A DNA stretch of 64,000 nt, taken from positions 50,457 through 114,456 of the forward strand of contig DAIDKS010000040.1 of NCBI GenBank assembly GCA_027449885.1. Reading direction: 5' to 3'. Both the position numbers and the translations under genes were made by a program. Source of the stretch: Acidimicrobiaceae bacterium (GTDB taxonomy: Bacteria > Actinomycetota > Acidimicrobiia > Acidimicrobiales > RAAP-2). The notes beneath the pieces were generated by a model, which saw only the letters and a program-made list of their open reading frames with translations, ran no database searches and had not been told where the DNA came from. This document shows positions 32,299 to 34,023 of this stretch, piece by piece. The first letter of the stretch is position 1. Each line of letters begins with the position of its first letter.

Positions 32299-32719
32299 TC
32301 CTCCCCGGAGGGCCGCCGTCTCGCGTGACGCGTGACGGACCACGCCACCTTCGCCACGTCCACGGGACTGCTTCGAGACGCCTGAGGACTTCGGGCGCGA
32401 GTCCAAGATGATGTGGATCCCGGCTAGGAGCCTCGACGAGGCGGTACGGGTCGCTCGCGCGATCGATCAGCACGCGCAGGCGATGGAGGTGAACCGGTTC
32501 CTACGGCGCGGCCGCTACTCCGTGATCGATCTCGCCAGGGCCCCATGGAGCGCCCGGAGACTCTGTTGGCGAAGCCGTGACGCTGCGTGAGACCAGAGCG
32601 CGACTACGAAGTGACGCAGTCGCCACGGGCGATGTCGACGACGCGGCGTTCACGGAGACCCTCGCCACCAAAGGCGTAGCGAGTGGTCCAGGTGACCGCA
32701 CAGCGCCGAGGCGGAACCC

Positions 32720-32762
32720 GTCAGTTTCATTTGACATATATCAGGTGTCAGGCTAAACTGAC
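32720..32762 (+). promoter_or_regulatory. Leaderless promoter with two operator-like palindromes for the HTH/Clp_N cassette
   Basis: TTGACA (32731-32736)-N17-TAAACT (32754-32759)-N7-ATG 32767; palindromes GTCAGTTTCATTTGAC (32720-32735) and GTCAGGCTAAACTGAC (32747-32762). Confidence 0.7.
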
Positions 32763-32766
32763 AAGC

Positions 32767-32979
32767 ATGGATGGCAGCGATCTTAAGTTGGATGTCTCGT
32801 CGGACGACCCGGCCGTCAGTCTTCGTGCCTCGCTGGCGCTCCACCGCCTTGCAGAGAGAGTCGAAGCGAACAGCGTGGCCCTGGCTAGACAGAAGGGCTG
32901 GTCGTGGAAGCAGATCGGCGATGCCCTGGGGGTCACACGCCAGTCCGTGCACACCAAGTACAACAAGGAGTCTTCGTGA
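32767..32979 (+). CDS. Small helix-turn-helix DNA-binding protein
   Basis: GWSWKQIGDALGVTRQSVHTKYNK HTH; ATG 7 nt after the TAAACT -10. Confidence 0.8.
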   Translation: MDGSDLKLDVSSDDPAVSLRASLALHRLAERVEANSVALARQKGWSWKQIGDALGVTRQSVHTKYNKESS

Positions 32980-33488
32980 CCAGTAACTCAGTTGCGCCAG
33001 AGACCTTTCACGTCTGGGCCCTTTACCTGCGGGCCAGCGAGGAGGCCCGTCGTCGAGGAGATCGCCGGGTGGGCACCGAACATCTCGTGCTCGCTGCGCT
33101 GGAGGAACCCTCAGTGGAGACTCTCTTGGGCGTGACGTTGCAGCAGGCCCGTGACGCTCTGCAGTCACTTGATCGGTCGGCGCTGGCGACCTTCGGCGCG
33201 GGACTCGATCTCGAGGTGGCACCCGCGCCGACGCGGGCCCTACCGAAGGAACCGAAGTTCAGAGACGTGATGCGCCAAGGTCGCCTGCGCATGACACCCG
33301 CGGCCAAGAAGGTGCTCGAGGACGCAGTTCGACCCAATCGCCGCAAGACTCAGGTCACGGCCGATCAGCTTGTGAATCGCATCGTCGCGCTCCGGTCGCC
33401 TGATCCCTCGGCGGCACTGCTGGGAGCGCTGGGAGTCAATGCGTCGGACATACTTCAGCGCCTGGACACGACCGCACCGAGGAACTGA
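32976..33488 (+). CDS. Stand-alone Clp N-terminal (Clp_N) domain protein
   Basis: Two Clp_N-like repeats: RRVGTEHLVLAALEEPSVETLLGVTLQQARDAL and RMTPAAKKVLEDAV...VTADQLVNRIVALRSPDPSAALLGALGVNASDILQRL; no AAA+ domain; GTGA overlap with the HTH gene. Confidence 0.78.
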   Translation: MTSNSVAPETFHVWALYLRASEEARRRGDRRVGTEHLVLAALEEPSVETLLGVTLQQARDALQSLDRSALATFGAGLDLEVAPAPTRALPKEPKFRDVMRQGRLRMTPAAKKVLEDAVRPNRRKTQVTADQLVNRIVALRSPDPSAALLGALGVNASDILQRLDTTAPRN

Positions 33489-33777: not shown

Positions 33778-34023
33778 TCATGTGGGTAGTTGGGGCCGCT
33801 GGCCGCTCAGGGTGAGCCTCGAGAGCGCGATGAGGGCACCGACGTGGTGGAAGCCGAAGGCCCGGCGAGCGATGAGCCGGATCTTCGTGTTGAACGACTC
33901 GACGAGGGCGTTGGTGAGTCCGTGCTCGATGGTCGCGACGATCGCCACGCGGGGTGTCCGACGCGCGCGAGACCTTCGTGACACGTTCGCGATGAACGTC
34001 TCGGAAGGGCTCGTCGGCGTCAT
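33778..34023 (-). pseudogene. C-terminal fragment of an ISL3-family transposase
   Basis: TIEHGLTNALVESFNTKIRLIARRAFGFHHVGALIALSRLTLSGQRPQLPT resembles the ISL3 transposase C-terminus; catalytic region absent. Confidence 0.7.

Follow-up and report, generated by a model that had tools for sequence, protein, structure and literature searches.

A two-gene HTH and stand-alone Clp_N cassette of an Acidimicrobiaceae genome, related to ClpC2 and recurrent in actinobacteria

Antibiotics target ClpC, and for one drug acting on ClpC a bacterial sponge and sensor is known, ClpC2. ClpC2 (Rv2667 and its orthologues in actinobacteria; Taylor et al. 2023) is a single chain in which residues 4-72 form a dimerising N-domain and the C-domain is a Clp_N domain that binds cyclomarin (PMC10030653). 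The protein represses its own, probably leaderless promoter via CGTCAAC-n5-GTTGACG sites, often present twice, and cyclomarin relieves this repression; an R57A substitution impairs dimerisation, and DNA binding has been placed in the C-terminal (Clp_N) domain from an R185A/R189A variant (PMC10030653). The ClpC1 residues F2, F80 and E89, critical for cyclomarin, are kept in ClpC2 (PMC10030653). Two further reports describe ClpC2 and ClpC3 as small Clp proteins that are induced when antibiotics are given (PMC10864484, PMC10892018). RelI, an HTH relative, is the antitoxin of the RelS-RelI system, with no evidence for DNA binding; it is a small HTH protein resembling the HTH region of ClpC2, and in its system the gene of the toxin, a RelE-like RNase, precedes that of the antitoxin (PMC13284704). 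No description of the two-gene form reported here was found in the open-access papers searched, and one may exist elsewhere.

The cassette lies in a window of 64,000 nucleotides, the whole stretch of DNA analysed, from an Acidimicrobiaceae genome assembly of 1.98 Mb that is 84% complete. Both of its genes are on the forward strand. The first (32767-32979) codes for a 70-aa protein with a predicted long dimerisation helix and an HTH, presumably an autorepressor, and the second (32976-33488) for a 170-aa stand-alone Clp_N protein with two repeats and no AAA+ module, a putative sensor or buffer that is translationally coupled to the HTH gene through a GTGA overlap. A re-check of the ORFs returned the genes, lengths, overlap and missing AAA+ module exactly as an earlier note on this DNA had given them. 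From sequence comparison, we regard it as moderately probable that the two proteins together make up an autoregulated sensor of the ClpC2 type.

The cassette is flanked by genes for a class II ribonucleotide reductase and a flavin oxidoreductase with GC3 values of 0.90 and 0.88, against 0.77 for the HTH gene and 0.72 for the Clp_N gene. Downstream sits a fragment of an ISL3-family transposase (33778-34023, reverse strand; PF01610, E 2e-9), a mobile-element remnant outside the proposed mechanism. The Clp_N gene or the pair is present in 11 of 37 same-genus genomes, the source genome counted. Together with the lower GC3 and the ISL3 remnant, this occurrence supports the earlier description of the surroundings as an accessory island. 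No relative of the pair was found in viral contigs or phage records, and the plasmid collection gave one weak match only, in an 11.9-Mb Nonomuraea record. PADLOC gave no match, PHROGs only generic HTH matches and Rfam none at the locus, and neither protein exceeded the NCBIfam cut-off.

The Clp_N protein matches PF02861 above the cut-off (E 5e-9), the match covering the first repeat only. An AlphaFold2 model built with 74 sequences folds it with confidence into two Clp_N repeats (pLDDT 86, pTM 0.83), and the best PDB matches of the model in Foldseek are N-domains of ClpC/ClpC1 (probability 1.00, target-normalised TM mostly 0.55-0.71), among them lassomycin-, MecA- and rufomycin-bound forms. 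By the modelled fold and these matches, the second repeat is genuine, though diverged. Compared with the ClpC/ClpC1 N-terminal domain, the fold is shared but the protein stands alone, has lost F2 and F80, and carries TADQ in place of the second-repeat GTEH; with respect to the ClpC/Hsp100 ATPase as a whole, the 170-aa ORF corresponds to Clp_N only. A GDRR-GT stretch in the first repeat is invariant, and the clade of the window copy has its own N-terminal H-x-W motif. A D-x-x-A-L-x-x-x-G motif between the repeats was considered as a signature of split partners only and dropped, as 3 of 11 ClpC2 sequences also match it.

The other Clp_N proteins of the source genome are one ClpC and one ClpB-like protein. 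This ClpC is canonical and has an intact N-domain, and ClpC N-domains bind adaptors such as MecA, whose complex is among the fold matches; the Clp_N protein could be an adaptor or anti-adaptor that controls how the resident ClpC-ClpP degrades the HTH repressor, with ClpC overload leading to derepression. We consider this improbable, since ligand alone relieves the DNA binding of ClpC2 in vitro, no protease being present (PMC10030653).

The HTH protein matches PF13384 (HTH_23) above the cut-off (E 1e-5). Its model, with a modest pLDDT of 76, has one long helix (15-42) and then two shorter ones (47-54 and 58-66), a predicted shape of dimerisation helix plus HTH; a Foldseek search of the PDB with this model gave no significant fold match. 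Residue E30 is kept in 70 of 71 sequences and R41 in all 71, and the two correspond to the D46-R57 salt bridge of ClpC2. By sequence, the best PDB match is RelI (E 0.006). This match, an HTH gene that comes first, the coupling, the apparent autoregulation and the mobile-looking DNA are what a toxin-antitoxin system would also present, with the HTH protein as the RelI-like antitoxin and a Clp_N toxin acting by titration of ClpC clients. Such a system is nevertheless very improbable here: the HTH protein is partnered by Clp_N and no RelS-like RNase toxin gene is present at the locus, the Clp_N fold is non-enzymatic, and ClpC2, the closest functional model, protects instead of killing.

Both halves of the pair are homologous to ClpC2, and its description as a split ClpC2-like system is in this respect strongly supported at the sequence level. 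With hhalign, the HTH protein aligns to the ClpC2 N-domain at 97% (E 4e-11), the alignment extending through the recognition helix (TKQAAQKRF in ClpC2, TRQSVHTKY in the HTH protein of the window), and the Clp_N protein to the ClpC2 C-terminal domain at 98.8% (E 4e-17). The likeness covers the correspondence of the two proteins to the N- and C-domains, the salt-bridge positions and a Clp_N domain without AAA+ module. For the operators it is partial: both systems place palindromes with half-sites of the GTCAA/GTCAG type in tandem over -35 and -10, with a start codon right after the second palindrome, but the palindromes measure 18 bp (N6) in the split pairs and 19 bp (N7 between the hexamers) in ClpC2. 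The two systems differ further in that the split pairs have two ORFs (with a 4-nt overlap in the window, and as two genes in 79 relatives) instead of one polypeptide; moreover, ClpC2 keeps the cyclomarin residues, two of which are lost in the window copy. In the ClpC2 loci of the phylum, the operators are likewise paired, each 19 bp long, and the start codon lies 0-2 nt past the second one. Genomes that are Streptomyces-like and Mycobacterium-like, as judged from ClpC2 identity, hold both ClpC2 and a split pair, and this coexistence in one genome indicates that the pair is a sister system and not a broken ClpC2. ClpC3 (Hoi et al. 2023) is, by the account of other papers, likewise a small Clp_N-type protein and is co-induced with ClpC2 by ClpC1 antibiotics; it may represent the Clp_N partner in a split pair of mycobacteria, in which case a part of the system has perhaps already been named in M. 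smegmatis.

Upstream of the cassette, two putative operators on the forward strand, absent from the earlier note, occupy positions 32719-32763. Operator 1 (CGTCAG-N6-TTGACA, 32719-32736) has as its right half the -35 element TTGACA (32731-32736), and operator 2 (TGTCAG-N6-CTGACA, 32746-32763), whose start is offset by 27 bp from that of operator 1, spans the -10 hexamer TAAACT (32754-32759) at a spacer of 17; the ATG of the HTH gene lies 3 nt past operator 2. The relatives show the same pattern of two 18-bp TGTCAR-N6-YTGACA sites over -35 and -10. Across split pairs the start codon follows operator 2 by 2-3 nt, and the transcript is therefore probably leaderless. In 79 loci, 151 operator sites fall in the 110-bp promoter segments and a single one in the remaining 397 kb, a density about 6900-fold higher in the promoter segments than elsewhere. 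At least two sites are present in 68 of the 79 loci, the -35 and -10 hexamers being in register and 16-18 bp apart in 68/68 and the operators 27-28 bp apart in 65/68. A scan of the phylum detected the tandem operator in 38 of 397 genomes, once per genome except for one with two, and no occurrence of a reversed control pattern in the same genomes; within the class, the strict tandem operator is found in 3 of 148 genomes. The gene downstream of the scanned operator is an HTH of the same family in 28 of 30 loci examined, usually with Clp_N next. This pattern is the signature of dedicated autoregulation, presumably by the HTH protein. A wider regulon in the source genome was considered and rejected: only two further single sites exist there, both within long ORFs, for about 0.9 expected by chance.

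The association of the two genes extends well beyond the source genus. GTDB genomes were scanned with the Clp_N alignment alone, which gave 80 loci from Acidimicrobiales, Nocardia, Streptomyces, Arthrobacter, Nonomuraea, Cellulomonas, Frankia and others; relatives of the source genome are mostly Acidimicrobiales MAGs, many of them carrying bog, fen or palsa in the isolate name. A gene of the same HTH family lies directly upstream of Clp_N in 79 of the 80 loci, and in the remaining one (L032) the upstream position is masked by N. Because the loci were chosen by Clp_N only, the pairing is an independent result; the co-occurrence holds across actinobacteria, and with the ClpC2-type tandem-operator leaderless promoter it lends strong support to the autoregulation proposed in the earlier note. 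A 4-nt overlap joins the two genes in 42 loci, a 7-nt gap separates them in 23, and neighbours beyond the pair recur mainly within genera. Separately, four loci (L128, L129, L130 and L132) have a related HTH gene with a tandem operator and no Clp_N gene found directly downstream; these are possible solo or re-partnered regulators.

The split arrangement also bears on which domain of ClpC2 reads DNA. The crystallised N-fragment of ClpC2 (8ada) stops at residue 72, right before the recognition helix of the genomic ClpC2 genes (L157-L168), and in the alignment the arginine at the R185 position is present in ClpC1 as well. As the complete HTH is a separate protein in the split pairs, we infer that the N-domain is the likelier DNA reader of ClpC2. 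If the published C-domain binding is right, the roles of the HTH and Clp_N proteins would change.

The ligand site of the window copy is altered. At the positions of ClpC1 F2, F80 and E89, its Clp_N protein (P0002) has V, M and E, and the own ClpC of the organism keeps F, F and E; of the ligand-binding residues E89 is thus retained and both aromatic positions are lost. The substitution is general in the Acidimicrobiales clade, where the F80 position is M, L or I in 33/33 aligned members and the F2 position mostly V, with F not among the common residues. Since the groove has lost its aromatic pair, a cyclomarin-type peptide is probably not the ligand in this clade. A sensor or decoy for ClpC-targeting natural products, as the earlier note had it, is accordingly not supported for the window copy, given F2 to V and F80 to M, and on these residues a decoy role in the source organism appears unlikely. 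In its strictest form, with peptides of the cyclomarin, rufomycin or ecumicin type inducing the pair and being sequestered from ClpC exactly as by ClpC2, local decoy action would fit the ClpC2-like architecture and operators, the kept E89 and an own ClpC with F2/F80/E89 as target; the residues lost in the window and throughout its clade make it highly improbable. Of 42 relatives in Streptomyces, Arthrobacter, Nocardia and others, 31 keep F2 and 23 keep F80; in a second set of 14, obtained from the operator search, 13 and 11 do so, respectively. A cyclomarin-type decoy role is plausible, judging by these positions, in relatives that keep F2/F80 (Streptomyces, Arthrobacter and Mycobacterium-like genomes).

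The loss of the known drug site alongside an invariant GDRR-GT could also suit a proteostasis caretaker, whose Clp_N protein would be a holdase or competitor buffering misfolded or phospho-proteins before ClpC, induced by proteotoxic stress or heat and meeting small molecules only incidentally. ClpC2 is itself heat-induced and a proposed holdase (PMC10030653), and the described antibiotic induction of the small proteins ClpC2 and ClpC3 (PMC10864484, PMC10892018) is compatible with such a role. The patchy distribution of the pair (11/37 in the genus, 3/148 in the class for the strict tandem operator) is ill-suited to a core stress factor, and some loci are flanked by divergent detoxification or export genes; this explanation is unlikely, although it keeps some weight.

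We favour a sensor divided over two proteins on account of the 79/80 pairing, the concentration of operators, the homology of both halves and the experimental precedent of ClpC2 (PMC10030653). The HTH protein would dimerise through its long helix, with E30-R41 in the place of D46-R57 of ClpC2, and dimers on both operators would block RNA polymerase and keep basal expression of the operon low. Produced during the same ribosome visit, the Clp_N protein would bind the HTH protein or its complex with DNA, and its groove would accept a ligand, which might be a small molecule or stretches exposed on damaged proteins. Ligand uptake would release the repressor and make both proteins abundant, the Clp_N protein then buffering the ligand. 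This reading is weakened by the loss of F2/F80 in the window copy, by the published DNA binding of ClpC2 in its C-terminal domain (R185/R189; PMC10030653), by the kinship with RelI, an antitoxin without DNA-binding evidence (PMC13284704), and by the modest HTH model with no significant PDB fold match.

The divergent genes that flank the operators in some lineages hint at a chemical signal. A divergent FAD monooxygenase gene is found beside them in Nocardia, Rhizohabitans, Nonomuraea, a Streptomyces and Glaciibacter (L054, L055, L076, L078, L086 and L095, and fragmentary in L068 and L072); these enzymes belong to the superfamily of the rifampin monooxygenases, to which they are related, yet score below the cut-off for them. 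In Rhizohabitans and Nonomuraea jabiensis (L076, L078) the monooxygenase ATG is 2-3 nt from operator 1, and of the roughly 1970 ORFs flanking the loci as a whole, only those directly next to the pair include such monooxygenases. A divergent ABC-exporter ATPase gene adjoins the cassette in L077, L090 and L137, and Microbacterium and Cellulomonas combine this gene with an additional operator (an extra copy in L077 and L090). At the window locus, no monooxygenase or exporter gene lies beside the cassette. From this arrangement, the pair may control detoxification or export in some lineages.

More broadly, we tentatively propose, as a serious possibility that falls short of probable, a phylum-wide and undescribed class of two-protein ClpC2-like sensors, in which an HTH repressor and a Clp_N protein control their own leaderless operon and sometimes a divergent drug-modifying or drug-export gene. 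If this is true, the DNA-reading part of ClpC2 would be its N-terminal HTH and not the C-terminal domain as published. A two-protein version with a well-conserved operator, widespread in antibiotic-producing lineages, would mean that DNA binding and ligand sensing are separable; besides questioning the DNA-binding domain of ClpC2, it predicts one inducer per clade, and the divergent monooxygenase and exporter genes may lead to the chemicals that actinobacteria sense via a borrowed protease domain. Finally, one divergent neighbour of a relative has a strong Pfam Ntox11 match, and another matches a HipA-like kinase.
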